This document shows, in pieces, positions 21,700-36,757 of a DNA stretch of 64,000 nt. The stretch spans positions 868,001 to 932,000 of the forward strand of contig NZ_JIAI01000001.1 of the NCBI RefSeq assembly GCF_000620785.1, written 5' to 3'. This stretch comes from Actinospineispora acaciae DSM 45401. Lineage in GTDB: Bacteria > Actinomycetota > Actinomycetes > Mycobacteriales > Pseudonocardiaceae. A program made the translations under genes and the position numbers. Each line of letters opens with the position of its first letter. Position 1 is the stretch's first letter. The notes below the pieces were generated by a model. The model ran no database searches. It saw only the letters and a program-made list of their open reading frames with translations, and was not told the origin of the DNA.

Positions 21700-23118
21700 C
21701 CGCTCGGACGGCACAGAGATCGCGGCCATCGCGGCGGTGAACTCCGACGCCGACGGTGCCGCCGGCAGGCCGCGCAGGCTGGACAGCAGCCGCTCGCTGG
21801 TCGCCTGGTCGGCCAGCCGCCGGGCGCCGCCGAGGAACTTGGCGTCCAGGTCGCCCGTCGACATCGGGTTGCCCAGGCTGCCCGCGTTGTGCCGGACGTG
21901 CTGTTCGTGGCGGGTGCCGTCGTCCAGCTCGATGCGCACGCCGCCGGGGAACGCGCTGGGGTACTCGTCGTACTCCAGCACCTGGTAGTCGACCCGGCGG
22001 GCGATGTCCAGCACCCGCTGGTCGCGCAGCCGGTCGGCGCGGTAGCTGTCCAGCTCGAGGCCTCCGTCGACCACGGTGAGCGCCAGCGAGAACGGCAGGC
22101 TGAACCGGGCGTCGTAGACGGTGCGCGGGGCGCGCTTGGTCTCCAGCGGGTCGCACACCAGGTGCAGGTACGCCGACGGCACCAGCGCGGTGAGCCGGCG
22201 GATCCGGCCGGTGTCCGAGGGCCGCAGCCCCAGCCGCTCGCGCAGCGCGCGCCAGGCGTCCACCGGGGCGTGGATGCAATGGCCGGCCGGGTACGGCTTC
22301 GGCGCCACCCGGGTGCCCACCCACTCCCAGCCCAGGCCGTCCAGCGCGCTCGACGCGCCCTCCGGGGTCAGGTCGACGCCGGCGAACGAGCGATACACCC
22401 CGGACGGGCCCTCCAGCACCGTCGCCGGGCCGGTGGCGCCGCAGCGGGCCAGGCGCACGGCGGTGACCGCCGCGTTCGCCGCCCAGCCCGGGTGCATCTG
22501 CTTGGCGTCCGAGCCGTCGGAGAGGTACTCCATCAGGCCGGAGGCCATGCTGCCGGCCAGCCCGGCGGCGTTGACCGCCTCGGCCCGTCCCACGCCCAGC
22601 AGCCGGCAGGCCACGGCGGTCGCGGCGAAGATGCCGATGATCGCGGTCGGGTGGAAGCCGCGCTTCTGCAGCCGCCCCTCGGCCAGCACGCCCAGCCGGG
22701 CGGCCACCTCGTAGCCGATCACGCCGGCGGCCACGATGTCCCGACCGGTCGCGCCGGTCTCCTCGCCCAGCGCCAGCGCGGTCGGCGCGACCACCACGCT
22801 CGGATGGATCATGGTCGCGGGGTGCGTGTCGTCGTAGTCCATGCCGTGCGCGAGCATGCCGTTGGCCAGGCAGGCGTCGGTGGCCCTGGCGCGCAGGCCG
22901 CCGCTGGCCCAGACCGACGCCGGACCCGGGGCGGGGTCCGCGCGCACCAGCCGGGCGCCCGCCGTGCCCAGGTCGAAGCTCGCGCACGCCAGCGCCACCC
23001 CGACCGTGTCCAGGAAGCGCCCGGCCGCCCACTCCAGCAGGTCGTCGGGCACGGCGGCGCTCGGGTGGCCGAGCGCGAAGTCCATGATCCGCGCGCTCAG
23101 CGCGGGCTCGGTAGCCAC
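21610..23118 (-). CDS. MmgE/PrpD family protein
   Basis: The 502-residue protein has the MmgE/PrpD all-helical domain (LDTVGVALACASFDLGTA, GMDYDDTHPATMIHPS, GFHPTAIIGIFAATAVACRLLG, SDAKQMHPGWAANAAVTAVRLA) and the C-terminal sandwich domain (SLPFSLALTVVDGG, FPGGVRIELDDGT). Relatives are 2-methylcitrate dehydratase, aconitate decarboxylase and iminodisuccinate epimerase. The GTG start shares one base with the ThDP enzyme stop. The tail is about 30 residues longer than usual and is encoded opposite the end of the MHS transporter. Substrate unknown. Confidence 0.87.
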   Translation of the reverse strand: MATEPALSARIMDFALGHPSAAVPDDLLEWAAGRFLDTVGVALACASFDLGTAGARLVRADPAPGPASVWASGGLRARATDACLANGMLAHGMDYDDTHPATMIHPSVVVAPTALALGEETGATGRDIVAAGVIGYEVAARLGVLAEGRLQKRGFHPTAIIGIFAATAVACRLLGVGRAEAVNAAGLAGSMASGLMEYLSDGSDAKQMHPGWAANAAVTAVRLARCGATGPATVLEGPSGVYRSFAGVDLTPEGASSALDGLGWEWVGTRVAPKPYPAGHCIHAPVDAWRALRERLGLRPSDTGRIRRLTALVPSAYLHLVCDPLETKRAPRTVYDARFSLPFSLALTVVDGGLELDSYRADRLRDQRVLDIARRVDYQVLEYDEYPSAFPGGVRIELDDGTRHEQHVRHNAGSLGNPMSTGDLDAKFLGGARRLADQATSERLLSSLRGLPAAPSASEFTAAMAAISVPSERLPERSSEGLAHPEGDHQRDQPAGDHQEAR

Positions 23119-24881
23119 TAGAACGGCGGGTTGTCGAGGCCGCGGTGGTCGAAGTGCGAGGGATACCGATAGTGGATCGACCGGTATCCCGGCGACTCGG
23201 GGTCGATGTCCACGTCGATGATCGTCGGCCGGCCGGCGGACAGCGCCTCCTTCACCGCCGGCTTGATCTCGTCGGGACTCCTGACGGTGACCCCGTTCGC
23301 GCCCAGCACCCGTCCCCAGGCCGCGAAGTCCACCCGGTGCGGCGCGCCGGACTCGGCGTCCACGTAGTCGGTCAGCGAGTGCCGGCCGTAGAACTTGATC
23401 ATCTGCTCCCGCTCGATCTGCAGCGTCGAGTTGTTCAGCACGATCACCACGATCGGCAGCCCCTGCTCGGCGGCGGTGAGCATGGCCGATCCGGTCATCA
23501 CGAACGAGCCGTCGCCGACCAGCACGACCGTCGGCTGCTCCGGGCGGGCCAGCGCGGCCCCGATCGCGCCCGGCACCGTCCAGCCCATCCGGTGGAACGC
23601 GCCGGAGTGGATGTAGTGCCTGCTCAGCGCGCGCAGGAACGGCGGGCCGAAGGACAGCGAGTGCCCGGTGTCGAACAGCACGTTCGCCTGGGGCGCCTGC
23701 TCCTCGACCACGTCGGAGACGTCGCTGAACACCCGGGCGTAGCCCATCGGCGCCGAGTCGTCCACGCGCAGCGGCTGGACCTGCTCGTGCCACTCCCGCC
23801 GCAGCTCGTCGAGCCGGTCCAGCCACGGCGTGCGGTCCGCCTGCCGGTGCCGGCCGAGCGCGTCGACCAGGCCGGTGATGGCCGAGCGGGCGTCCGAGAC
23901 GATCGCCACCTCCGCCGGGTAGACCCTGGCCAGCTCGCCCTCGTCGATGTCGATGTGCACCAGCTTGGTGCTGCCGGGGATGTCGTGCAGGCTCCAGCCG
24001 CCGGTGTCGATGTCGCCGAACCGGGTGCCGATCCCGATCAGCACGTCGCACTCGCGGGCGGCCTGGTTGGCCTGCCCGGTGCCGGCGCGCCCGACGCAGC
24101 CGAGCGAGAGCCGGTGGTCCTCGGGCAGCGCGCCCTTGCCGGGCACGGCGGTCTCGACCGGGATGTCGAACCGCTCGGCCAGGGTGGCCAGCTCGTCCCA
24201 GGCTCGGGCGTTGTGGATGCCGCTGCTCACGCTGAGCAGCGGGCGTTGCGCCGTCGAGATCAGCGCGGCCGCACGCTCGATCGCCTCCGGGTCGGGGCCC
24301 GGGCGGCTCACCGTGGTCCAGCGCGCCAGGTCGGGCAGCTCGCGGACCTCGATCTCGGTGTGCTGGATGTCGAACGGGAGCTGCACCACCACCGGGCCGG
24401 GGCGCCCGCTGATCGCCGTCTTGTACGCCCGGGAGATCATCTCCAGCGCGGTGTCCGGCCTGGTCACGCTGAAGGACTGCTTGGTCACCGGCTTGAGGGT
24501 GAGCGGCCACTCCTCGGGGCCGTACCGGTAGTACTCCTCGATGCCGCCCCGCCCGTACCACTGGGTGGCCCCGCCGCCGGCGAGCACGAGCAGCGCCGAG
24601 GAGTCGAAGAACGCCGAGGCCACCGCCGGGGTGATGTTGGCGTTGCCCGGGCCGACCGAGGTGGTGACCACCGCCATCGGCGGCTGCCGGCGGGTCCGCC
24701 AGTAGCAGTCCGCCATGTGCACGGCGTGGTCCTCGCTGCGGCTGGCCACCGTCTTGATGGACGTCTCGTGGACCAGGGCGTCGAGCAGCGCCCAGTTCCC
24801 GTGGCCGTTGTAGCCGAAGCAGAACTCGGTGCCCGCTCCTTCGAGGGCCTTCGCGATCGCCGTGGCTACCCGCACGCGCAC
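23118..24881 (-). CDS. Thiamine diphosphate-dependent enzyme, acetolactate synthase-like
   Basis: The 587-residue enzyme has the three ThDP domains of the acetohydroxyacid synthase/benzoylformate decarboxylase family. The catalytic Glu50 is in ASRSEDHAVHMAD. The ThDP-Mg motif runs from VGDGSFVMTGS to VLNNSTLQIE near residues 440-475. The central domain has PLLSVSSGIHNARAW. It would ligate or decarboxylate a 2-oxo acid. GTG at 24881 has GGAGGT upstream. It is cotranscribed with MmgE/PrpD and follows the reductase by 51 bp, with candidate operator C in that gap. Confidence 0.88.
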   Translation of the reverse strand: MRVRVATAIAKALEGAGTEFCFGYNGHGNWALLDALVHETSIKTVASRSEDHAVHMADCYWRTRRQPPMAVVTTSVGPGNANITPAVASAFFDSSALLVLAGGGATQWYGRGGIEEYYRYGPEEWPLTLKPVTKQSFSVTRPDTALEMISRAYKTAISGRPGPVVVQLPFDIQHTEIEVRELPDLARWTTVSRPGPDPEAIERAAALISTAQRPLLSVSSGIHNARAWDELATLAERFDIPVETAVPGKGALPEDHRLSLGCVGRAGTGQANQAARECDVLIGIGTRFGDIDTGGWSLHDIPGSTKLVHIDIDEGELARVYPAEVAIVSDARSAITGLVDALGRHRQADRTPWLDRLDELRREWHEQVQPLRVDDSAPMGYARVFSDVSDVVEEQAPQANVLFDTGHSLSFGPPFLRALSRHYIHSGAFHRMGWTVPGAIGAALARPEQPTVVLVGDGSFVMTGSAMLTAAEQGLPIVVIVLNNSTLQIEREQMIKFYGRHSLTDYVDAESGAPHRVDFAAWGRVLGANGVTVRSPDEIKPAVKEALSAGRPTIIDVDIDPESPGYRSIHYRYPSHFDHRGLDNPPF

Positions 24882-24932: not shown

Positions 24933-25862
24933 TCAGTCGTCTTCGCCCCTGTCGAGGTAACGGTGCGCGGCCAGCGCCGCGGTCGCGCCGTCGCCGGCCG
25001 CCGTGATCGCCTGGGACGCCGAGTCGGCCCGGATGTCCCCGGCGGCGAACAGGCCGGGCAGCCCGGTGCGCATCCCGCCGTCGGTCGCCACCCTGCCGTC
25101 GTCGTCGAGCGTGAGCAGCTCGCGCAGGAAGTCGGTCCTCGGCCGCAGCCCGATGTAGACGAACACGCCCGCGACCGCGTCCTCGACCACCTCTCCCCCG
25201 GCGACCCGCGTCCTGACCGCGCCCACCACCTCGTCGCCGAGCACCTCCTCGACGACCGACTCCGCGCGCACCTCGATGGCCGGGTGTTCGAGCACCCGGG
25301 TGCGGTAGGTGTGCTGGCCGCCGAGCTCGCGGCCCCGGTGGAACAGCAGCACCCGCTCCACGTGGTTGGTCAGCTCCAGCACCTCCAGCAGCGCGGAGTC
25401 GCCGCCGCCGACCACCGCGACGGTCTTGCCCCGGTGCAGCGGCCCGTCGCAGGTCGCGCAGTCGGACACCCCGCGGCCGTGCAGCCGGTCCGCCCCTGGC
25501 ACGTCCAGCCGGCGCGCCTCGGAGCCGGTGGCGACGATGACGGCCGAGGCCTGGATCTCCCCCGCGCCGGTCGAGGCCACCCAGCCGCCGTCGGACTGGG
25601 TGATCTTCTCCAGCGAGCCGGGCAGGCACTCCACGCCGGCGTTGAGCGCCTGCTCCTGCAGCATCGGGCACAGGTCGTAGCCGGGCACGCCCTCGGGGAA
25701 ACCGGGGAAGTCCTCGATTCGGCCCACGCTGATCAGGTGGCCACCGCCGGCGACCTCGTCGCCGAGCAGCAGGCCGGTCTTCCGGCCGTTGCGCGCCGAG
25801 AACAGCCCCGCCGTCAGCCCGGCCATCCCGCCGCCGGCAACCAATACCTCGAAACCGCTCAC
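24933..25862 (-). CDS. Thioredoxin reductase-like FAD/NAD(P) oxidoreductase
   Basis: The 309-residue flavoprotein has an FAD motif near the N-terminus (VLVAGGGMAGLTAGLFSARN), the redox-active disulfide CATC in SDCATCDGPLHRGKT near residue 135, an NAD(P) motif VAVVGGGDSALLEVLEL, and the late FAD motif GLFAAGDIRADSASQAI. The layout is that of low-molecular-weight thioredoxin reductase, though no thioredoxin gene is adjacent. GTG at 25862 shares one base with the ATPase stop. Its place in the selenoprotein operon suggests it supplies reducing equivalents, directly or through thioredoxin, to the UGSC selenoenzyme; this is inference. Confidence 0.88.
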   Translation of the reverse strand: MSGFEVLVAGGGMAGLTAGLFSARNGRKTGLLLGDEVAGGGHLISVGRIEDFPGFPEGVPGYDLCPMLQEQALNAGVECLPGSLEKITQSDGGWVASTGAGEIQASAVIVATGSEARRLDVPGADRLHGRGVSDCATCDGPLHRGKTVAVVGGGDSALLEVLELTNHVERVLLFHRGRELGGQHTYRTRVLEHPAIEVRAESVVEEVLGDEVVGAVRTRVAGGEVVEDAVAGVFVYIGLRPRTDFLRELLTLDDDGRVATDGGMRTGLPGLFAAGDIRADSASQAITAAGDGATAALAAHRYLDRGEDD

Positions 25863-26986
25863 TACCTGATCGCCTCACCGGTCTCTGGGTGGAAGAAGTG
25901 CAGGTCGTCGGCGTCCAGCGGGACCTCGACGGTCTCACCGACCTTGACGGTGGCCGACGGCGAGAAGCGGGCGTAGACGGGTGTCTCGCCCGAGCCGGTG
26001 GGCACGGTGATCTGCACCAGCCGTTCGTGACCGAGCATCTCCACGTTCGACACCTGGCCGCGCAGCCGTGCCGCGGGCGTCACCGGCCGTGCCGCGTCGG
26101 TCACCTTCTCCGGGCGGATCCCGACCACGACCTCCGACCCTGCCAGATCGGCGAGCGCGGCGTGCCGCCCGCGCGGCACCGGGACGCGGTGCTCCCCCAA
26201 CAGCCAGGACAGGCCGCCGTCGTCGCTGCCGTCCTCGGCGCGCCCCAGCGGGCAGTGCAGCAGGTTCATCCCCGGCGATCCGATGAAGGTGGCCACGAAC
26301 GTGTTGGCCGGCGCGTCGTAGACCGCCTCCGGGGTGCCCGCCTGTTGCAGCACGCCGTCCTTCATGACGGCGATCCGGGTGCCCATGGTCATGGCTTCGA
26401 CCTGGTCGTGGGTGACGTACACGGTGGTCACGCCGAGCTGGCGCTGCACGCCGGAGAGCTCGGAGCGCATCTGCATCCGCAGCTTGGCGTCCAGGTTGGA
26501 CAGCGGCTCGTCCAGCAGGAACGCCTGCGGTTGGCGCACGATCGCCCGCCCCATCGCGACGCGCTGCCGCTGTCCGCCGGACAGCGCCCTGGGCTTGCGC
26601 GCGAGCAGCTCCTCCAGGCCCAGCAGCGCCGCCGCCTCCTTGACCCGGCCCTGGACCTCGGCGGTGCGCATCCGGGCACACCGCAGCGGGAACGCGATGT
26701 TCTCGAACACCGTCATGTGCGGGTACAGGGCATAGTTCTGGAACACCATGGCTATGTCGCGCCGGCGCGGCTCGACGGCGTTGACCAGCCGGCCGCCGAT
26801 GTGGATCTCGCCCTCCTCGATCGTCTCCAGGCCGGCGATCATGCGTAGCGCCGTCGTCTTCCCACACCCGGACGGCCCGACGAAGATCATGAACTCGCCG
26901 TCCGCGATCCGCAGGTTCAGGTCCTTCAGCGCGCGGGTGCCGCCCGGGTAGACCTTTCCCAGGTTGTGGAGGTCAATGGCTCCCAT
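25862..26986 (-). CDS. ABC transporter ATPase, CUT1 (UgpC/MalK-like)
   Basis: The 374-residue protein has Walker A GPSGCGKTT near residue 38, Q-loop FQNYALYPHMTVFENI, signature LSGGQRQRVAMGRAIV, Walker B FLLDEPLSNLDAKLRM, and H-loop VTHDQVEAM. Residues after about 240 form the TOBE/regulatory region. It drives uptake through the two permeases encoded directly upstream; its ATG is 1 bp after the preceding stop. Confidence 0.92.
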   Translation of the reverse strand: MGAIDLHNLGKVYPGGTRALKDLNLRIADGEFMIFVGPSGCGKTTALRMIAGLETIEEGEIHIGGRLVNAVEPRRRDIAMVFQNYALYPHMTVFENIAFPLRCARMRTAEVQGRVKEAAALLGLEELLARKPRALSGGQRQRVAMGRAIVRQPQAFLLDEPLSNLDAKLRMQMRSELSGVQRQLGVTTVYVTHDQVEAMTMGTRIAVMKDGVLQQAGTPEAVYDAPANTFVATFIGSPGMNLLHCPLGRAEDGSDDGGLSWLLGEHRVPVPRGRHAALADLAGSEVVVGIRPEKVTDAARPVTPAARLRGQVSNVEMLGHERLVQITVPTGSGETPVYARFSPSATVKVGETVEVPLDADDLHFFHPETGEAIR

Positions 26987-26987
26987 G

Positions 26988-27821
26988 TCAGCCTCTAATC
27001 CCGCCGGCGAAACCGCGAACGAACCGGCGTTGAGCGATGAAGAAAATGCACAACATCGGCATGATGGCGATCGTGGCTCCCGCGAAAATGATGTTCCATT
27101 GCGTGTAGTTCTCGTTGACGAACGTGTTCAGTGCGAGCGGCAGGGTGGCGATAGGAGTGCCGCTCATGAAGATCAGCGCGAGGAAGAAGTCGTTCCACAC
27201 GATCAGGCCGGCGAGCATCGCCACCGTGGTCGTGATGGGCCGCAGCAGGGGCACCACCACGCGGAAGAACGTCCGGAACAGGCCGGCGCCGTCCACCTGC
27301 GCGGCCTCCTCGTACTCGGTGGGCAGCGCGCGGATGAACCCGGTGTAGAGGAACACCGCGAACGGCAGGATGCCGGCGGTGTGCAGGATGACCATGCCGT
27401 GATAGGTCGCGAGCAGGCCGAACGCGCGCATCGCCACGTACACCGGGACCAGCCCGAGGGTGGCCGGCATGATGAACCCGACCACGAACAGCACGTAGAG
27501 GCCCCGGCTGAGCAGCGAGGTCCGCCGGGCCAGCACGTACGAGGTCAGGGCCGCCACCAGCACCAGGCAGGCGACGCTGGCCACCGTCATCACGGCGCTG
27601 TTGAACAACGCCCTGCCCATGCCGCCGGTGACCCCGCCGCTGGTCCAGGCCTGGGCGTAGTTTCCCCATTCCACGTCGAACAATGGCGTCAACGGCGACT
27701 CGTTGAAGTCGCTGGTGGACTTCAACGAGATCTCGATGAGCAAATAGAACGGAAGCGCGAATATCACCGCCAGCAGCACCATCAGCGCCTCGCGGACCAA
27801 CGACCAGGCCGTGTACCTCAC
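26988..27821 (-). CDS. ABC transporter permease 2, CUT1 family (MalG/UgpE-like)
   Basis: The 277-residue permease has six membrane segments and the EAA loop [23 protein letters not shown] near residue 180. The GTG start overlaps the stop of permease 1 (GTGA). It pairs with permease 1, the ATPase and the lipoprotein in the same operon. Confidence 0.9.
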
Positions 27822-28753
27822 GACAGCCGCCTTTCCCGTCGCCGTTGGAACATGAGGTTCGCGATCCCGAGCACCGAGATGAGCACGGTCATGACCAGCG
27901 CGATCGCGGCGCCGAAACCGAACCGCCCGACCACGAACGTCTGGTCGTACACCTGGGTGGCGAGGGTCTCCGTGGTGTACACCGGGCCGCCCGAGGTCAG
28001 CGCGAAGACCTGGTCGAAGACCCGCAGCCCGAGGATCAGCATCAGGGTGGACACCACCGTGCTGGCCGGCGCGAGCAGCGGCAGGATGATCCGCCGCAGC
28101 CGCATCCACAGCCCGGCGCCGTCGATCATGGCGGCCTCCTCCAGCTCGTCCGCCACGCCCTGCAGCCCGGCCAGGTAGATGATCATGGCCTGGCCGGAGT
28201 ACTGCCAGACCATCACGACCAGCACCGTCCAGATCGCGGTGTTCGGGTCGCCGAGCCACTCGTGGCGCCAGGACTCCAGGCCGAGCGAGTCGAACGCCCT
28301 GTTCAGCGCGCCGTCGTAGGTGAAGATGTACTGCCAGATGTAGGTCACCGCCAGCGGGCTGAGCACCACCGGGGCGAAGAACACCGTGCGCATCACGTTG
28401 CGCGACTTGAGCGTGCGGTTCAGCGCCAGCGCCAACCCGAGGCCGGCCACGTTGACCAGCACGACGAAGCAGCCGGCCAGCAGGAAGGTGTGCAGCAGCG
28501 CGCCGCGTTGCACGGGCGAGCCGATGATCTCCCGGAAGTTGTCCAGCCCGATGAAGTCCGGCGCGCCCACCCCGTCCCAGTTGGTGAACGCGTACACCGC
28601 GCCGATCAGGGGCGCGGCGAAGTGCATGGTCACCAGCAGCACGATGCCGAGCAGCGCGAGCAGCCACGGCGGGCGGCGGGCACCGCCCGCCCGCCGCCGG
28701 CCGAGCTTGGGCGACGGGGGTGCCTCCTCGGCGTTGACGAGGGTGGCCGTCAC
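27818..28753 (-). CDS. ABC transporter permease 1, CUT1 family (MalF/UgpA-like)
   Basis: The 311-residue permease has a basic N-terminal tail, six membrane segments and the EAA loop ELEEAAMIDGAGLWMRLRRI near residue 215. GTG at 28753 is chosen because it overlaps the binding-protein stop (GTGA), the pattern used throughout this operon; GTG at 28768 is possible. Confidence 0.88.
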   Translation of the reverse strand: MTATLVNAEEAPPSPKLGRRRAGGARRPPWLLALLGIVLLVTMHFAAPLIGAVYAFTNWDGVGAPDFIGLDNFREIIGSPVQRGALLHTFLLAGCFVVLVNVAGLGLALALNRTLKSRNVMRTVFFAPVVLSPLAVTYIWQYIFTYDGALNRAFDSLGLESWRHEWLGDPNTAIWTVLVVMVWQYSGQAMIIYLAGLQGVADELEEAAMIDGAGLWMRLRRIILPLLAPASTVVSTLMLILGLRVFDQVFALTSGGPVYTTETLATQVYDQTFVVGRFGFGAAIALVMTVLISVLGIANLMFQRRRERRLS

Positions 28754-30015
28754 GGGTTGGCCGCCCACGCGTCGTCCATCGCCCGCAGGATGTCGTCAAC
28801 CTTGACCTGGCCGTTGTAGAGGCCGGTCATGGCCTTGTAGGCGGCCTGTGCCGGGGCCTCGGACGGCCACATGATGCCGGCCCCGAGCGCGAACTTGCCC
28901 TGCTTGGCCAGCGGTTCGAGCGGGCCGAGGAAGTCGGGAAGCTCGCCCCGGGACATCATGGCCGGGGAGAACGCCCCGGTGTTGCGCGCGAGCTCGTCGC
29001 GGTGCTGCGCCATGTAGTCCAGGAAGACCAGCGCCTCCGGGATGTGCTTGGAGTCCTTCGGGATCGACGACCCGCCGACCTCCAGGGGCAGCGCCGTGCC
29101 CAGCCCGCCCGGAACCGGCGCCGCCGCCCACTTGCGCTGCGGGTTGCGCGCCGTGAGGTAGGTGGCCGCCGTGGACGGGCCGATGCCCATCAGCGACTTG
29201 CCGGAGACCTGCATCCGCTTGCCCTCTTCGGTGGTGCGGCCCGCCCCACCCGGGTAGTAGCAGTCGGCGTTGATCATGTCCTGGACCTGCTGGAACACCT
29301 TGTGCCAGCCCGGGGTGGACTGGAAGGTGGTCTTGCCGGCCGCGCGTTTGGCGTCCCAGTCGGGCTCCTGGCTGTAGACGTTCGCGGCGGCGAAGGACTG
29401 CAGCAGCATCCGGTTGCCGGCCATGTCGGCGGCGCCGGCGACGAACGCGTACGTCCCGTGCTCCCGCGCCTGCTTGCAGAGCGCGAGCAGCTGGGCGAAG
29501 TCCTGCGGCGGCTTGAGCCCGAACTTCTCCATGTCCGGGACCGTGTAGTCCATGAACTGCGTGGAGAGCCCGCCGACCAGGCTGTACACCTTGCCCTCGT
29601 AGGTGGCCGTCGGCTTGAGCAGCTCGGGCAGGTCGCGCGCCCACGGCCGGTCGCTGAGGTCGACCAGCTTGCCGGCCTTGGCGAGCTTGTACAGCGACAG
29701 GCCGGTCGAGCCGCCGCCCGAGCCGGGGCTGGGGCCGATGATGTCGGGCGGGTTGCCGGCCTGCAGCTGGGTGGTCTCCACCTGGCCGAGCTTGACCGTG
29801 GGGATGTACTGCACGTTCATCTTGATCTTGGGATGGCTGGCGTTGAACGCGGCGATGATCGGCTCGGTGCCGTCCTTGGTGGCGGTCGAGTCGTACATCC
29901 GCAGCGTCACGACCCCCGACTCACCGCCGCCGCACGCCGCCAGCACCAGCGCGGCCACCAGCGCTGTCACCACTGCGCTGCCCGGCCGCGCCAGCTTGCG
30001 CGCAACAGGCCTCAT
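28750..30015 (-). CDS. ABC transporter solute-binding lipoprotein, CUT1 type
   Basis: The 421-residue protein has a signal peptide with lipobox LVLAAC, so it is anchored outside the membrane at about Cys28. The mature part resembles family 1 extracellular solute-binding proteins (TLRMYDSTATKDGTEPIIAA, FNASHPKIKMNVQYI, LQAGNPPDIIG). CUT1 importers usually carry sugars or glycerol-phosphates, but the neighbouring enzymes do not point to a sugar. ATG at 30015 has AGGAGTGAGG upstream. It starts 31 bp after the UGSC gene. Confidence 0.9.
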   Translation of the reverse strand: MRPVARKLARPGSAVVTALVAALVLAACGGGESGVVTLRMYDSTATKDGTEPIIAAFNASHPKIKMNVQYIPTVKLGQVETTQLQAGNPPDIIGPSPGSGGGSTGLSLYKLAKAGKLVDLSDRPWARDLPELLKPTATYEGKVYSLVGGLSTQFMDYTVPDMEKFGLKPPQDFAQLLALCKQAREHGTYAFVAGAADMAGNRMLLQSFAAANVYSQEPDWDAKRAAGKTTFQSTPGWHKVFQQVQDMINADCYYPGGAGRTTEEGKRMQVSGKSLMGIGPSTAATYLTARNPQRKWAAAPVPGGLGTALPLEVGGSSIPKDSKHIPEALVFLDYMAQHRDELARNTGAFSPAMMSRGELPDFLGPLEPLAKQGKFALGAGIMWPSEAPAQAAYKAMTGLYNGQVKVDDILRAMDDAWAANP

Positions 30016-30046: not shown

Positions 30047-31714
30047 TCAGCGCCACTCGTCGATCGACACCGAGCGCCCGGAGAGCATGCGTTCCTGTGG
30101 CGTGCCGTTGCCCCAGCCCTCGAACACCCGCCAGCTCGCGGTGGTCCGGCCGCCCATCACGATCACGTGGATGTCCTCCGGCACGTTGATCGGGATCAGG
30201 TCGTCGGGCCCGGCCTTCAGGTAGCTCGCCCACGGCTCGACGCCCTCGCGCCCGCGCCGGCCGAAGAACAGGTCCTGCAGGCCCTGCCCCCACCACAGCC
30301 CGGCCCGGACGCGCGCGTTGTCCGCGACCCACTCGATCAGGTCCTGCCGGTGGGTGAACCCGTGGTGCTCGACCAGGGTCTGCGCCGCCAGCGGGTCGAG
30401 CACGATGATCGCTCCCCCGCCGCCGCGCATCGCGCCGAACACTCGCAGCGCGTTCTCCCGCCAGTTCTCCCCCAGCCCGCCGGCCGTCACCATGGTCCGC
30501 ACGCCCATGAACACGGTGGCCGTGCTGTCCTCCGCCGCGAAGCCGTAGCGCAGGTGGTAGGGCTCCCACGGGCTGTACTCCTCGTTCTCCGCGAACGTGA
30601 GGTTGGTGAACGAGAACGGGTTGCCCAGCGTGCCCATGTAGCTGATCCCGGGCACCGAGCCGCCCTGCAGGTTCTGCGAGCCCAGCCCGTAGGCACGTCC
30701 GATCGTGACGTTGGAGTGCCCGTACGGGCCCATCGCGCCGATGCCCGAGTTCATCTTGATCTGCTCGCGGATGGGGCCGTTCACGACCACCATCGGCGCC
30801 ATCGAGGAGATGCTGCTGTGCCGGGCGGAGTAGCCGCTGCCCAGCAGCGCCAGGATCACCGGGAAGTACTCCGGCCTGGCCCCGGCCATCACCGCGTTCA
30901 CGGCGGCCTGCTCGACGGTGAACTCCCAGTAGTCCCTGGTGGACGCCGCGCGCAGCTTGCCGACCACCTTGTCCGGCGGGTGGCTGGTGCCGGCCAGCAT
31001 GGCCTCGACGCGCTCCTCGGTCGGCAGCACCACGGGCAGCTGGTCGGTCCAGCCGTTCTCCGCGAAGGCGGCGAGCAGGTTCTCCTCGGTGTCCGGGTCG
31101 AGCAGCCGCGACTTGGACTGCTCGAAGGCCATGCCGGCGATGTCCCTGTCGTCCAGCGGCCTGGTCAGCCCGTCCAGCAGGTCCTCGGCGAACGCGTTCT
31201 TGGAGATCGGGTTGGTGCCCTCGATGTAGGCCCGAAGCTCGGCCGAGGTGCGCCCCTGCACCGGGGACGGGACGAAGGCGTGGCGCAGGGTGCCGATGCC
31301 GGCCAGCCGGCTGGTGGAGGCCACCAGGCGGTGGAACGCATCCGCGTGGACGGAGACGGTGGGAACCCGGTACTCGGACTCGAGCCGGGTGGCGTGGCCG
31401 GCGACCGCCGGCGCGCAACCGCTTCAAAGGCCTACCCCGAGTATCGCCGCGTCGCCCTCGGACTGGATCCGGGAGTACAGGTCGGGGGCCGGGCTGAACG
31501 GCGTCTCCATGTGGACGACGACGGTCTCGACGTCGGGCAGGCTCTGGGCGTACGACGCGCGCAGCTGCGTCATGAAGTCACCGGAGTTCTCGAACCCCAC
31601 GTCGACCAGGAACACCCGCTTGCCCGACAGGCTCGCCGGCCGAGGCGCCAGCGACTTCGCGCCCACGACCGGCGCGTTGCCCTCGGGGTTGTGGACCGTG
31701 ATCTTGCCCGCCAT
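30047..31714 (-). CDS. UGSC-family selenoprotein (in-frame TGA read as selenocysteine, Sec97)
   Basis: Two open stretches, 31714-31427 and 31423-30047, are in the same frame and separated only by TGA at 31424-31426. Read through, they give a 555-residue protein. The junction reads AILGVGL-U-SGCAPAVAG, so Sec97 and Cys100 form U-S-G-C, and is followed by YRVPTVSVHADAFHRLVAST. This is the layout of the UGSC family, known from metagenomic selenoproteome surveys, where the motif is U-G-S-C. A hairpin suited as SECIS follows the TGA. The C-terminal 430 residues (PVVLPTEERVEAML, SGYSARHSSISSMAPMVVVN, GIGAMGPYGHSNVTIGRAYG) have no function I recognise. ATG at 31714 has GGAGAGGAA upstream. It heads the ABC importer, thioredoxin-reductase-like and ThDP operon. 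Function needs selA, selB, selC and selD elsewhere in the genome. Confidence 0.85.
31388..31420 (-). promoter_or_regulatory. Candidate bacterial SECIS hairpin of the UGSC gene
   Basis: Counting U of UGA as 1, nucleotides 15-20 (GCCGGC) pair with 25-30 (GCCGGC) around the loop GGUC (21-24). An outer stem pairs GGU.GCG (7-13) with CGC.ACC (33-39), with one U/C mismatch and a small internal loop. In E. coli fdhF the apical loop GGUCU is at 22-26, so the loop sequence and distance agree closely. Confidence 0.6.
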
Positions 31715-32037
31715 TGCGCGTTCCTCTCCGTCCTCGTCCCCGCCCCGGGGCGCCAGCCGTCACGCATCGATTCGCCCGCGTCCTCGGATGGCTCTGCTGA
31801 TGGGGTACGCGAGCGACCTGCTGGCCAGACGGAGCGGATGACGCCCCGCTGCGTCCTCGGGCTTCGGGTGCGCTCGAGGCAGGTTCTATAGTAAATAGAC
31901 TGCCTTCGATGGTCTCGGCTGTCAACAGCTCCCGTCGCTTGACTGGATACACATTGCATGCAATCATGCTCCGCGACTGCGCGAAACCCCTGGTGCAGCC
32001 CGCGATCTCCGCCACCTCCGCCACCGTGAGTGGGACA
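31715..32037. other. 323-bp divergent regulatory region between the UGSC gene and the second ABC importer
   Basis: It separates the two divergent transcription units of the island and contains candidate operator D at 31884-31900. The part near 31880-31985 is AT-rich for this genome and probably holds both promoters. No gene is convincing here; in-frame extension of the plus-strand lipoprotein to 31909 lacks a ribosome site and would bury the signal peptide. Confidence 0.6.
31884..31900. promoter_or_regulatory. GntR-regulon candidate operator, site D
   Basis: TTCTATAGTAAATAGAC contains the perfect dyad TCTAT-AGTAA-ATAGA and aligns with sites A, B and C. Its place between the divergent UGSC and second-importer units suits control of both. 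Confidence 0.55.
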
Positions 32038-33135
32038 ATGACAAAGAAGTTCGCGCTTGTGTTCCTGGTCGTCGTGGCTCTTGCCCTGAGCTCGTGCAGC
32101 GGCGGGCAGGGTGATCCGGCCAACGCCCCCGGCCTGGCTTCGGGCGATCCTCGGATAGCCGAGCTGTACCGGGCCGCGCTGCAAGAAGGCCAGGTCACGC
32201 TGTACAGCCACGTGACCGCGACCGAGGAGATCTCGGCGTTCGTGGACGCCTTCAAGAAGGAGTTCCCCGGCATCGAGGTCCAGGTGACCAACAAGATCGG
32301 CTCGGCGATCCTGACGACCTTCCTGAGCGAGAAACGGGCCGGCAAGGACGTCGCGGACGTCATCCAGTACCCGGGCCTGGAGCCGTTCCAGAACGAGTTT
32401 CGGACCGAGGGTCTCGTCCAGGAGTACACCCCCTCCACCGCGGCCAAATACCCGGCGGAGGCGTCGGTGCCCGGCATCGCCTATCCCTGGCTGGCCTATA
32501 CGACGGGGGCCGCGTACAACTCCGACAAGATCACGCCTCGGGAGCTGGAGCTGCTGCGGACCTATCAGGGCTGGGCCGACCCGTCCTGGAAGGGGCGGAT
32601 CGACGCCGGCAGCCCGGGCTCCGCGTCCCTGCAGCACGCGGTGTTCTACTGGACGCAGGTGGACCAGCAGTTGGGCCGGCGCTGGTTCGAGGGGTTCGCG
32701 GCGAACCGGCCGGTCGCTTTCGTGAGCCCGACGCCGGCGGTGGAACGGGTGATCGCGGGCGAGTTCGTGGCCAGCTACCCCTCGCTGTCCGCCGTGGCCG
32801 CGCGCGCCATGGACAACGGCGCGCCGATCGGCTGGGCGACCCAGGAGTACGCCGTCACCGTCCCCGGGCTCGTCGGCCTCGCCAGCCGTGCGCCGCACCC
32901 GAACGCGGCGAAGCTGATGGTGGAGTTCACGCTCAGCGACGCCGGCCAGCGGGCCATGGTGGACGCGGTCAAGGCGGACTCGCTGCGCACCGACCTGAAC
33001 CTCAGCCCGGTCCAGGGGAACCAGCGGTTCGACCAGCCCAAGAGGCGGGTGTACGTCCAGTCGGACGTGTTCGCCAAGCAGGGTCGCGCCGCCGTCGACC
33101 TGTGGAACCAGTTCATCGGCCCGGGTCGAAATTGA
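32038..33135 (+). CDS. ABC transporter solute-binding lipoprotein, iron/2-aminoethylphosphonate type
   Basis: The 365-residue protein has a signal peptide with lipobox LALSSC (about Cys20). The mature part resembles class F/FutA-like solute-binding proteins (LYRAALQEGQVTLYSHVTAT, FKKEFPGIEVQVTNKIGSA, VADVIQYPG, PWLAYTTGAAYNSDKI). Such proteins bind ferric iron, phosphonates, thiamine or organic acids. ATG at 32038 starts the signal peptide directly. Its stop overlaps the permease start by 4 nt. Confidence 0.87.
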   Translation: MTKKFALVFLVVVALALSSCSGGQGDPANAPGLASGDPRIAELYRAALQEGQVTLYSHVTATEEISAFVDAFKKEFPGIEVQVTNKIGSAILTTFLSEKRAGKDVADVIQYPGLEPFQNEFRTEGLVQEYTPSTAAKYPAEASVPGIAYPWLAYTTGAAYNSDKITPRELELLRTYQGWADPSWKGRIDAGSPGSASLQHAVFYWTQVDQQLGRRWFEGFAANRPVAFVSPTPAVERVIAGEFVASYPSLSAVAARAMDNGAPIGWATQEYAVTVPGLVGLASRAPHPNAAKLMVEFTLSDAGQRAMVDAVKADSLRTDLNLSPVQGNQRFDQPKRRVYVQSDVFAKQGRAAVDLWNQFIGPGRN

Positions 33136-34847
33136 CCACTACATCCTGGCTGTCCGACGGCAGGAACAAGGTGGCCGCCCTGACGGCGCCGCTGTACCTG
33201 GTGATCGCGGTGATCGTCCTGGTGCCGCTGCTCTACCTCGGGTACGCGTCGATCCGCTCCGGCGCGCCCGGCGACCCCACCGCCGGCTACACCGGCCAGA
33301 ACATCAGGACGGTGCTGACCGAGGCCAGCTACCGGCGGGTGCTGCTGAACACGCTCACCGTGGCCGGCCTGGTGACGGTGCTGGCGACCGCGCTGGGCTC
33401 GTGCATGGCGTGGCTGGTCGGTAGGACGAACGTGCCGGGTCACCGGCGGCTGGAGCTGCTGGTGCCGCTGCCGTTGTTCCTGTCCCCGTTCGCCGGCGGC
33501 GTCGCGTGGGTGTTCCTCGGTTCGAAGAGCGCCGGGCTGATCAACGTGGCGTACCGGTGGCTGACCGGCGGCGACGGCGCGCTGGTGAACATCTTCAGCT
33601 TCGGCGGCCTGGTGTTCACCATGGTGCTGTTCATGGCGCCGTACGCCTACCTGTTCACGCTCGGCCCGCTGCGCAACATGGACGGTTCGCTGGAGGAGGC
33701 GTCCCGGGTGCACGGCGGCTCGCACTGGCGGACGCTGACCCGGGTCACGCTGCCGCTGGTGCTGCCCGGCATGACCGCCGCGCTGCTGATGATCTTCGTG
33801 CTGTCCGCCGAGATGTTCAGCCTGCCGAGCCTGATCGGCATGCCGGCCGAGTACTACACGCTGCCGTTCCTCATCTACCAGGCCACCCACTTCTCGCCGC
33901 CCAACTGGGGCCTCGCCTCGGCCGCCGGGCTGGTGCTGCTGCTGATCGTGATCGTGGGCGTGCTGTTGCAGAAGCTGGCCACCAGAACGAGCGAGCGGTT
34001 CGTCACGGTGAGCGGCAAGGGGTTCGGCGCGGGTCGGGTGGACATCGGGCGGTGGCGCTGGCTCGGCGCGCTTGTGTGTTACGGGTATGTGGCGGTGGCG
34101 ATGGTGCTGCCGATCGCGGCGCTGCTCATGGGCTCGCTGATGCGGTACTTCACGTCGTCGTTCTCCGCCAAGCTGTTCACCTTCAACAACTGGGTGCGGG
34201 TGCTCTCCTCGGAGGGCCTGCGCTCGGCGCTGAAGAACACGCTGATCGTCGCGGCGGTCGGCCCGCTCATCGGCCTGGCGCTGGCGTTCGCGCTGTCGTA
34301 CCTGTGGCAGCGGCTGCGGGCGCCGTTCGGGCGCACGGCGGAGACGGTGGCCATGCTGCCGGTCGCGATTCCGGGCGTGGTGCTCGGCGTCGGGTTGGTG
34401 TGGGCCTTCGTGGCCACTCCCCTGTACGGCACGCTGGGCATCCTGTTCGTGGCCTACGTCGCGCGGTACCTGCCGCACAGCCTGCGCATCTTCCAGTCCT
34501 CGCTGGTGCAGATCCATCCCGAGCTGGACGAGGCGTCCCGGGTGGCGGGCGCGGGCATCGGCCGGACCCTGGCGAGCGTGACGCTGCCGTTGCTGCGGCA
34601 CTCGGCGCTGTCGGCCTGGGTGCTGCTGTTCATCCTGATGATCCGGGAGCTGAATGTGGCGATCATGGTCTATACGCCGAACACGACAGTGCTTCCGGTG
34701 CTGCTGTGGAGCGAGGTCGAGGCCGGCCAGTACGGCGCGGCGGCGACCATCGCGATGCTTGAGGTGATCATCATCGCGGTGGCGTTCGTCCTGGCCCGGC
34801 GGCTGTTCCGGGTCGACCTGGTCAACACGATGGCGCGCGGCCGATGA
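33132..34847 (+). CDS. ABC transporter permease with two fused membrane domains
   Basis: The 571-residue protein has about 12 membrane segments in two homologous halves, each with an EAA loop: SLEEASRVHGGSHWRTLTRVTLP near residue 190 and ELDEASRVAGAGIGRTLASVTLP near residue 465. Fused permeases are typical of the iron/2-aminoethylphosphonate importer class. The chosen start is TTG 33132 overlapping the preceding stop (TTGA); GTG at 33171 is an alternative. Confidence 0.87.
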   Translation: MTTTSWLSDGRNKVAALTAPLYLVIAVIVLVPLLYLGYASIRSGAPGDPTAGYTGQNIRTVLTEASYRRVLLNTLTVAGLVTVLATALGSCMAWLVGRTNVPGHRRLELLVPLPLFLSPFAGGVAWVFLGSKSAGLINVAYRWLTGGDGALVNIFSFGGLVFTMVLFMAPYAYLFTLGPLRNMDGSLEEASRVHGGSHWRTLTRVTLPLVLPGMTAALLMIFVLSAEMFSLPSLIGMPAEYYTLPFLIYQATHFSPPNWGLASAAGLVLLLIVIVGVLLQKLATRTSERFVTVSGKGFGAGRVDIGRWRWLGALVCYGYVAVAMVLPIAALLMGSLMRYFTSSFSAKLFTFNNWVRVLSSEGLRSALKNTLIVAAVGPLIGLALAFALSYLWQRLRAPFGRTAETVAMLPVAIPGVVLGVGLVWAFVATPLYGTLGILFVAYVARYLPHSLRIFQSSLVQIHPELDEASRVAGAGIGRTLASVTLPLLRHSALSAWVLLFILMIRELNVAIMVYTPNTTVLPVLLWSEVEAGQYGAAATIAMLEVIIIAVAFVLARRLFRVDLVNTMARGR

Positions 34848-35962
34848 CCGCGGCGGATCCGGCGCTGATCGAGGTCGCCGGCGTGGTCAAGGAGTACCGG
34901 GGGCACACCGCGCTGCGCGGCATCGACCTCTCGGTGGCCGAGGGCGAGTTCCTCTGCCTGCTCGGGCCCAGCGGCTGCGGCAAGACGACGCTGCTGCGCT
35001 CCATCGCCGGGCTCGAGGCCATCGACGGCGGGCGGATCAGCGTGCGCGGCGAGGTGCTCTCCGAGCCGGGGCGCACGGTGCCGGCGGAGCGGCGCAACCT
35101 CGGGATGGTCTTCCAGTCCTACGCGCTGTGGCCGCACATGACGGTCTTCGGCAACGTCGCGTACGCGTTGAAGACCAAGAGCTGGCCCAAGGCGCGCATC
35201 CCCGAGCGGGTGGCCGAGGTGCTGGACATGGTCGGTCTCGGCGGGCTGCAGGACAGGTTCGCCGCGCAGCTGTCCGGCGGGCAGATGCAGCGGGTGGCGC
35301 TGGCGCGCAGCCTGGCGCCGGAGCCGAGCGTGCTGTTGTTCGACGAGCCGCTGAGCAACCTGGACGCCAAGCTGCGCGAGCGGATGCGTTTCGAGCTGCG
35401 CGCCATCCAGCGCCGGGTCGGGATCACGGCGGTCTACGTCACGCACGACCAGGCCGAGGCGATGGTGGTCGCGGACCGGATCGTGCTGCTCAAGGACGGC
35501 GACGTGCACCAGTCCGGCTCGGCCGCGGAGCTGTACGAGTGGCCGGCCAGCGCGTTCGCCGCCGACTTCATGGGCAGCACGAACATCGTCGAGGCCGACG
35601 TGGTCGCGCCGGCGTCGGGCGAGGCGGGCTTCCGCTGGCCGGACGGCCGGGTGGTGACCGGCCAGCTGCCGGACCGGCTGCGCGACGCCACCAGGGTGAT
35701 CACCAGCATCCGGCCCGAGCACGTGGCGGTGCACGCCGTGCGCCCGACCGACCCGCCGGGCGGCACCGTGCTCGACGCCGAGCTGGAGGACCTGGTGTAC
35801 CTGGGCAACCTCGCCGAGGGGTACCTGCGGGTGGGCACCACGCGGCTGCGCGCCCAGCTCGCGGCGGAGCGGGCCGCCGAGCTGAAGGCCGGCATGCCGG
35901 TGTGGGCGGTGCTGGAGAACAAGTGGGTGCGCGCCGTGGACGGCGCCGAGCAAGGAGACTGA
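34844..35962 (+). CDS. ABC transporter ATPase (PotA/FbpC-like)
   Basis: The 372-residue protein has Walker A GPSGCGKTT near residue 43, Q-loop FQSYALWPHMTVFGNV, signature LSGGQMQRVALARSLA, Walker B LLFDEPLSNLDAKLRE and H-loop VTHDQAEAM, then a TOBE domain. ATG at 34844 overlaps the permease stop (ATGA). It completes the second importer of the island. Confidence 0.92.
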   Translation: MTAADPALIEVAGVVKEYRGHTALRGIDLSVAEGEFLCLLGPSGCGKTTLLRSIAGLEAIDGGRISVRGEVLSEPGRTVPAERRNLGMVFQSYALWPHMTVFGNVAYALKTKSWPKARIPERVAEVLDMVGLGGLQDRFAAQLSGGQMQRVALARSLAPEPSVLLFDEPLSNLDAKLRERMRFELRAIQRRVGITAVYVTHDQAEAMVVADRIVLLKDGDVHQSGSAAELYEWPASAFAADFMGSTNIVEADVVAPASGEAGFRWPDGRVVTGQLPDRLRDATRVITSIRPEHVAVHAVRPTDPPGGTVLDAELEDLVYLGNLAEGYLRVGTTRLRAQLAAERAAELKAGMPVWAVLENKWVRAVDGAEQGD

Positions 35963-35965
35963 GAC

Positions 35966-36757
35966 GTGACGCAATCGCGCGATCAGGAGGGCACCGTCGC
36001 CCTGATCACCGGTGGGAGCGACGGCATCGGCAAGGGCATCGCCCTGCGCCTGCATGAGGAGGGCGCCAGGGTGGCCTTCTGCGGTCGCGATCGTGACCGG
36101 TTGGACGCCGCGGTGGCGTCCATCGCCCCGGACGGGAGTGACCGGCTGCTCGCCGTGCAGGCCGACTGCCGGAGCAAGGCCGACCTGGAGCGGCTGCACC
36201 AGGCCACGGTGGATGCGTTCGGGCCGGTCAACGCGCTGGTGAACAACGCGGGGACGTCGGTGCGGGGTGCGTTTCTGGAGCTGGACGACGACGTCTGGAT
36301 GGCCGACTTCGAGCTGAAGATCTTCTCCGTCGTCCGGCTCACCCGGATGGTCGCCGGCGGCCTGGTCGCGCGGGGTGAGCCCGGGCGGATCGTCAACGTC
36401 ATGACCATCAATGGGAAGCACCCGGGTGCGGGGTCGGCGCCGACCACTGTCAGCCGGGGCGCCGACATGGCCATCACCAAGATCCTCTCGAAGGAGCTGG
36501 CGCCGCACAACATCCTGGTCAACGCGGTCTGTGTGGGGACCATCGAGAGCGGCCAGCACGACAGGGTGTGGCAGGCGGAAGGCGGCGACCGGGATGCCTT
36601 CTACCAGCGGCTGGCCAAGACCAGGGAGATCCCGCTCGGGCGCGCCGGGACACCGGCCGAGGTCGCCGAGCTGGTCAACTTCCTGATCTCCGAGCGCGGC
36701 TCGTACATCACCGGCGCGTCGATCAACATAGACGGCGGCTCCTCGTACAACCTCTGA
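35966..36757 (+). CDS. SDR-family protein lacking the canonical Tyr-Lys catalytic pair
   Basis: The 263-residue protein has the SDR cofactor motif TGGSDGIGKG (residues 15-24), NNAG in LVNNAGTSVRGA, and the C-terminal GASINIDGG. At the active site, where SDRs have YxxxK, it reads T-T-V-S-R in GSAPTTVSRGADMAITK, so Tyr is Thr and Lys is Arg. It may therefore use different chemistry or bind without reducing. GTG at 35966 has AAGGAGACTGA upstream and lies 3 bp after the ATPase stop, as the last gene of the plus-strand operon. Confidence 0.83.
   Translation: MTQSRDQEGTVALITGGSDGIGKGIALRLHEEGARVAFCGRDRDRLDAAVASIAPDGSDRLLAVQADCRSKADLERLHQATVDAFGPVNALVNNAGTSVRGAFLELDDDVWMADFELKIFSVVRLTRMVAGGLVARGEPGRIVNVMTINGKHPGAGSAPTTVSRGADMAITKILSKELAPHNILVNAVCVGTIESGQHDRVWQAEGGDRDAFYQRLAKTREIPLGRAGTPAEVAELVNFLISERGSYITGASINIDGGSSYNL

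Follow-up and report, generated by a model that had tools for sequence, protein, structure and literature searches.

A predicted selenoprotein of a fused UGSC subfamily beside ABC transporter and thioredoxin-reductase-like genes in Actinospineispora acaciae

UGSC proteins are a described group of selenoproteins (Pfam PF24696; NCBIfam NF041046; PMC2398784). The text on the family in PMC2398784 lists a UxxC motif, describes the proteins as having a thioredoxin-like fold, and mentions a fusion, UGSC/Unknown_1, in which the UGSC domain is joined to a further conserved domain. In actinobacteria, UGSC-motif selenoproteins are described from Geodermatophilaceae (PMC5330540). The SECIS element that accompanies a bacterial selenocysteine (Sec) codon is given in the legend to Fig. 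2 of PMC13188914 as a hairpin located 16-37 nt after the UGA, with a stem of 4-16 bp, G in the first two loop positions, and an MFE of at most -7.5.

The window analyzed here is a 64,000-nucleotide stretch of the A. acaciae DSM 45401 genome (contig NZ_JIAI01000001.1, positions 868,001 to 932,000). Judged from its sequence, one gene of the window encodes a conserved predicted selenoprotein that is truncated in public records and is a fused variant of the already known UGSC family. It resembles the UGSC selenoproteins in having Sec or Cys at the same column together with a UxxC motif, and, like the UGSC/Unknown_1 fusion, it has a UGSC domain joined to a further conserved domain. The features of the gene are the following.

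30047..31714, minus strand: predicted selenoprotein gene, fused UGSC domain and C-terminal domain (translation, Pfam, homologues)
31424..31426, minus strand: in-frame TGA, codon 97, predicted Sec (kept in relatives, Cys in homologues)
31397..31412, minus strand: SECIS-type hairpin GCCGGC-GGTC-GCCGGC (fold, bacterial model, covariation)
31223..31696, minus strand: UGSC domain, residues 7-164 (PF24696; predicted alpha/beta receiver-like fold)
30050..31147, minus strand: C-terminal domain, from about residue 190 to residue 555 (without a Pfam match at E up to 1)

Translation of the window confirmed the claim of an earlier note on this DNA that an open frame starts at ATG 31714, encounters a TGA at 31424-31426, and resumes in the same frame. 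The note counted 459 codons after the TGA; 458 of them are sense codons and the last is the final stop. In other words, a single frame of 555 codons, closed by a TGA stop (30047-30049), consists of 96 residues, the TGA as codon 97, and the 458 sense codons. Cys100 is the sole Cys of the protein (record P0001 has C written for U97), and no residue of the 555 other than Cys100 and position 97 is capable of thiol or selenol chemistry. The Pfam UGSC family scored 74.4 bits on the joined protein versus 33.0 and 24.5 bits on the two pieces. Gene-caller fragments of 96 and 425 residues exist as had been predicted. Because the public records hold headless relatives too, namely P0003 and P0004 (426 aa) and P0005 (434 aa), all from Actinomadura, Sec is missing from that annotation. 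The headless relative P0003 carries the UniRef name 'Major capsid protein', a probable misnaming.

The TGA at codon 97 is almost certainly read as selenocysteine, which would yield a 555-residue protein with Sec97. Evidence for this reading comes from the comparison of relatives. A scan of genome contigs recovered eight related loci, all from five Actinomadura genomes and 66-73% identical, and these were the nearest relatives found. All eight carry the TGA at codon 97 in frames that are otherwise open, and their motif is U-S-G-C in five and U-S-T-C in three. Three of the five Actinomadura genomes contain third-copy genes, which also have a TGA at the site. These third fused copies (L017 9095-10800, L018, and L019 (minus)) are ~45% identical and display a U-S-T-C motif and a compensated SECIS stem. 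Alignment of position 97 with more distant homologues, proposed in the earlier note, revealed Cys and no other residue: of the 7469 homologues found, 120 were listed, and all 108 of these that cover the site have Cys, as CSTC in 92, CSSC in 9, CSMC in 6, and CSGC in 1. The remaining 12 lack the site, 11 missing the region and 1 beginning just past it. Among them is the headless piece from the window itself; the others are perhaps fragments or Sec forms that went unrecognised. The earlier note had called U-S-G-C odd. It does differ from U-G-S-C, but it is no oddity in its subfamily, as the C-S-x-C pattern of the 108 site-covering homologues indicates. Two marks of a bacterial selenoprotein, an in-frame UGA opposite Cys in homologues and its retention in relatives, are both found here.

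Among 62 genomes of the window's own genus, 38 have some match to the window protein. Besides the window's own, a near-full-length match was found only in genome G007 (48%, a Cys form); other matches in the genus are closer (up to 51%) but short. In a sample of the phylum, matches at E 1e-30 were obtained in 21 of 396 genomes. In a tree, the window protein, the Actinomadura form labelled copy A, and two headless rows fall on one starred branch (95/97), and the Cys label has to change no fewer than three times; some protein rows entered the tree with gap signs, so this result depends on the removal of gaps by MAFFT. The gene may have been transferred between lineages. On the Neorhizobium galegae plasmid pNgVX, a Cys form (L116 8962-10630) is annotated as two overlapping genes. 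The Cys form at L121 is one intact frame, and the split at L116 is a frameshift or an assembly error.

A SECIS-type hairpin follows the TGA. Its loop GGTC (GGUC, 31403-31406) lies 17 nt after the TGA on a six-pair stem, and a 45-nt fold has an energy of -22.4 kcal/mol, values that lie within the printed bacterial model. The energy itself is unremarkable in such GC-rich sequence (z -0.64; 51 of 200 shuffles were as good). More specific evidence comes from conservation and covariation. The stem GCCGGC/GCCGGC with its GGTC loop is identical in the window and all eight Actinomadura loci. At the same spacing, the third copies have CCCGAC-GGTC-GTCGGG, and one copy from genome G247 has GCGGC-GGTC-GCCGC. 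Across 13 rows chosen by the authors (8 distinct; omitted were L058, which is the second copy from G247, and the U-GSC copies, the hairpins of all these being in a different register), all 48 cells are paired, and three of the six pairs are changed on both sides. The covariation score was 0.405 versus 0.131 in shuffled alignments, and none of 500 shuffles scored as high; slid controls reached at most 0.071, a comparison that favours the hairpin because its structure was read from the window itself. Two of the five measures were weaker: three doubly changed pairs were reached by 27 of 500 shuffles, and the number of pair types by 211 of 500. When the model is applied in simplified form, 47 of 48 listed Sec sites (three of them repeats, and selected by a search pattern that misses the two G247 copies) show a hairpin with 5 bp or more, versus 32% of background codons. 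The single exception is L069.

The host genome (G000; 9.93 Mb, 93 contigs) encodes the machinery for Sec insertion. The earlier note had asked for selA, selB, selC, and selD, and all four are present above their cut-offs: a tRNA-Sec scored 75.4 bits (gathering 47) with anticodon TCA (UCA) by ARAGORN, and selA, selB, and selD scored 392.7, 253.8, and 385.7. They form one cluster at C10:171308-178469. The anticodon differs from that of Geodermatophilaceae, whose tRNA-Sec is described with CUA (PMC5330540); the host genome pairs UCA with TGA. Sec decoding appears to be in use in this genome, since it contains two formate dehydrogenase alpha-type (FdhA) genes with one in-frame TGA each, a candidate Sec site. 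At the Actinomadura loci (L017-L024), selB (5 loci), selD (4), and tRNA-Sec (4) adjoin the UGSC, ABC, and reductase genes. There, selB adjoins copy A in 5/5 loci, selD is found in four of the eight loci, and tRNA-Sec lies directly upstream of copy B in all three of its loci. In the window's genome, unlike in Actinomadura, the Sec machinery is on another contig than these genes.

Could the TGA be something other than a Sec codon? One alternative is that translation stops at the UGA in a regulated manner, so that the UGSC head (96 residues) and the rest (425 residues) are distinct proteins. Many relatives do have the UGSC and C-terminal domains as separate neighbouring genes. However, those relatives split between the domains, whereas the TGA of the window falls within the UGSC domain, with Cys100 three residues further on, and each listed Cys homologue that spans the site is a single chain; such a stop is therefore very unlikely. 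The gene could also be a pseudogene split by a nonsense mutation, as the behaviour of a standard caller, which stops at the TGA, would suggest. This is still less probable, given that the same TGA stands in 8/8 Actinomadura loci, that tRNA-Sec and sel genes are present, and that the substitution pattern is one of purifying selection on both sides of the TGA: against Actinomadura L017, dN/dS was 0.223/0.537 before the TGA and 0.175/0.531 after it, and across the pairs tried the ratio was 0.24-0.48, alike on both sides. The last alternative is a sequencing error, codon 97 being really TGC or TGG, and the abundance of Cys homologues is consistent with it. However, a TGA at the same codon in five Actinomadura assemblies and a hairpin that is kept with compensation, and that is absent from the Cys gene of G007, make an error extremely improbable.

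The protein belongs to the UGSC family in a wide sense. It passes the gathering score of PF24696 (74.4 versus 25), the sole Pfam match at E up to 1. The equivalog model NF041046 gave 52.8 bits, short of its curated cut-off of 125, and the protein is therefore filed as a separate fused U-S-x-C subfamily. The wider UxxC motif is present, and the literal U-G-S-C is not. Thus, the earlier assignment to a UGSC-family selenoprotein holds for the Sec-coding TGA, which is supported, and for the Pfam family; it does not hold at the level of NF041046. The profile of the fused subfamily aligned with that of the classical U-GSC proteins at an hhalign probability of 99.6. Two further UGSC genes with an in-frame TGA and the classical U-GSC motif are present in the same genome.

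G000 C4:254928-256202: fused U-GSC copy (L027, L084), in-frame TGA
G000 C19:60666-62182: split U-GSC copy (L026, L085), UGSC and C-domain as neighbouring genes, in-frame TGA

The split classical copy scored 155.7 bits with NF041046, in contrast to the window protein, while the fused classical copy on C4 (a 230-residue piece) scored 106.7, also below the cut-off. The UGSC domain of the window protein models as a CheY/flavodoxin-like fold, and this predicted fold would depart from the thioredoxin-like one printed for UGSC proteins (PMC2398784). The C-terminal domain, ~365 residues with many invariant positions, matched no Pfam family with an E of 1 or less, and none of the solved folds matched it clearly.

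A comparison with GrdB, the selenoprotein of glycine reductase (PF07355), was made at the level of profiles. The classical UGSC profile (31 rows) aligned with the Sec-bearing end of GrdB, Sec on Sec, with a score of 44.2 versus at most 19.4 in 30 column-shuffled controls; the GrdB profile was built from 11 of 15 full-length GrdB loci. The fused-subfamily profile was barely above its controls (23.4 versus 21.5, probability 3.7), and PF07355 itself did not match the window protein. Full-length GrdB matches also occur in Actinomycetota (L096-L110), and a pattern search located an in-frame TGA at the Sec site in 11/15 of them, as U-GTG or U-GTS.

The gene is followed on the same strand by a run of genes for transport and redox functions.

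28750..30015, minus strand: ABC solute-binding protein (PF01547), 31 nt downstream of the stop codon of the selenoprotein gene
27818..28768, minus strand: ABC permease (PF00528), with a relative in 4/8 Actinomadura loci
26988..27800, minus strand: second ABC permease (PF00528), provisional start codon, with a relative in 8/8 Actinomadura loci
25862..26986, minus strand: ABC ATPase, UgpC/MalK type, with a relative in 2/8 Actinomadura loci
24933..25862, minus strand: thioredoxin-reductase-like FAD/NAD(P) protein, CATC, with a relative in 8/8 Actinomadura loci
23118..24881, minus strand: predicted thiamine-diphosphate enzyme, acetolactate-synthase-like

The binding-protein gene is 61-64% identical in all eight Actinomadura loci; this count and those of the permeases and the ATPase come from a crude gene finder with flanks cut at 6 kb. 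The same procedure, with the same 6-kb limit, did not find the gene of the thiamine-diphosphate enzyme in the Actinomadura flanks, and of all the genes in the run it is the one least certainly linked to the selenoprotein. Transport genes recur beside UGSC genes, as ABC genes in the window, Actinomadura, and Neorhizobium and as TTT binding proteins in two Variovorax plasmids. On the opposite side of the selenoprotein gene, 32029-36757 on the plus strand holds divergently oriented genes for a second ABC transporter, comprising a binding protein, a PhnU2-like permease, and an ATPase, and then one for a short-chain dehydrogenase.

The flavoprotein of this run has a CATC motif and scored 272.4 bits with TIGR01292, below the cut-off of 343.45, and is therefore named 'thioredoxin-reductase-like'. 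In the window, its gene is 4.2 kb from the selenoprotein gene, beyond the transporter genes. In 12 of 14 loci and 9 of 10 genomes, a reductase-like gene was found no more than 4.2 kb from a UGSC-family gene; the 14 loci are those with fused copies at least 40% identical, several of them overlap on one contig, and three further Neorhizobium plasmid matches (H3-H5) are left out of the count. The two remaining loci, both from G247, had no reductase-like gene in the DNA examined. In three Actinomadura genomes, the UGSC gene nearest the reductase is the third copy. The association holds for Sec and Cys forms alike, including the Cys forms of G007 and Neorhizobium. Among 17 more distant loci picked by the authors, a reductase-like gene was present in 6 and an N-terminal Trx-like fusion in 1. 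Since the host genome has only four reductase-like genes, the window's included, chance proximity within 10 kb is estimated at ~1% per locus. A link between UGSC proteins and such a reductase is not described in the literature searched, which did not extend to Haft and Gwadz (2023) or Haft and Tolstoy (2025), both on selenoprotein neighbourhoods and cited in PMC13188914, and no claim is made that the link is unpublished.

What might the selenoprotein do? The route, substrate, and reaction are what we infer from the gene run and its relatives. Sec97 and Cys100 probably constitute a redox centre that is re-reduced by the thioredoxin-reductase-like flavoprotein of the same run. A route from NADPH through the flavoprotein and Sec97/Cys100 to a substrate is the simplest because a reductase-like gene lies near most close relatives, and the transporter in the run suggests an imported small molecule as the substrate. 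Whether the role is catabolic is evenly balanced. In such a scheme, SelB and the hairpin would recruit Sec-tRNA to the UGA, and the ABC transporter would import a small organic solute. The solute would be held by the C-terminal domain and reduced or cleaved by the Sec97 selenolate. The Se-S bond that would then form between Sec97 and Cys100 would be reopened by electrons from NADPH via the flavoprotein, and the thiamine-diphosphate enzyme would perhaps act on the product. A more specific version, tentative and less likely than not, is that the protein is a Se-dependent catabolic reductase and a distant cousin of GrdB, recharged by NADPH via its own reductase-like partner, that cleaves a carbon-heteroatom bond in a compound delivered by a dedicated transporter. 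The position of tRNA-Sec, selB, and selD next to the gene set in Actinomadura was counted in this version.

Alternatively, the selenoprotein may be a general thiol-disulfide or peroxide reductase that functions in redox protection, with no catabolism of an imported compound. The UxxC motif and the reductase-like genes near many copies are consistent with such a protein, and a 2026 review holds most uncharacterised selenoproteins to be likely redox proteins (PMC13188914). However, solute-binding and transport genes recur beside the gene in both Actinomycetota and Pseudomonadota, and the size and many invariant residues of the C-terminal domain also argue against general protection, which appears rather unlikely. 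The locus offers a testable partner in the reductase-like gene, the transporter limits what the substrate can be, and Cys versions of the same enzyme are available for comparison. The possible tie to GrdB is of further interest.

The C-domain is also found in other arrangements. Of the 55 loci inspected, among which L026 and L028 are a single place, 29 have it joined to an N-terminal domain that is related to the one at L031 and in most cases bears a CxxC. These extensions (L026, L030, L031, and others), which Pfam did not confirm as thioredoxin, usually carry CPTC or CATC and are mostly located beside a UGSC gene with a TGA. At L031 (G032), a gene beside the split UGSC pair reads by eye as uricase-like.
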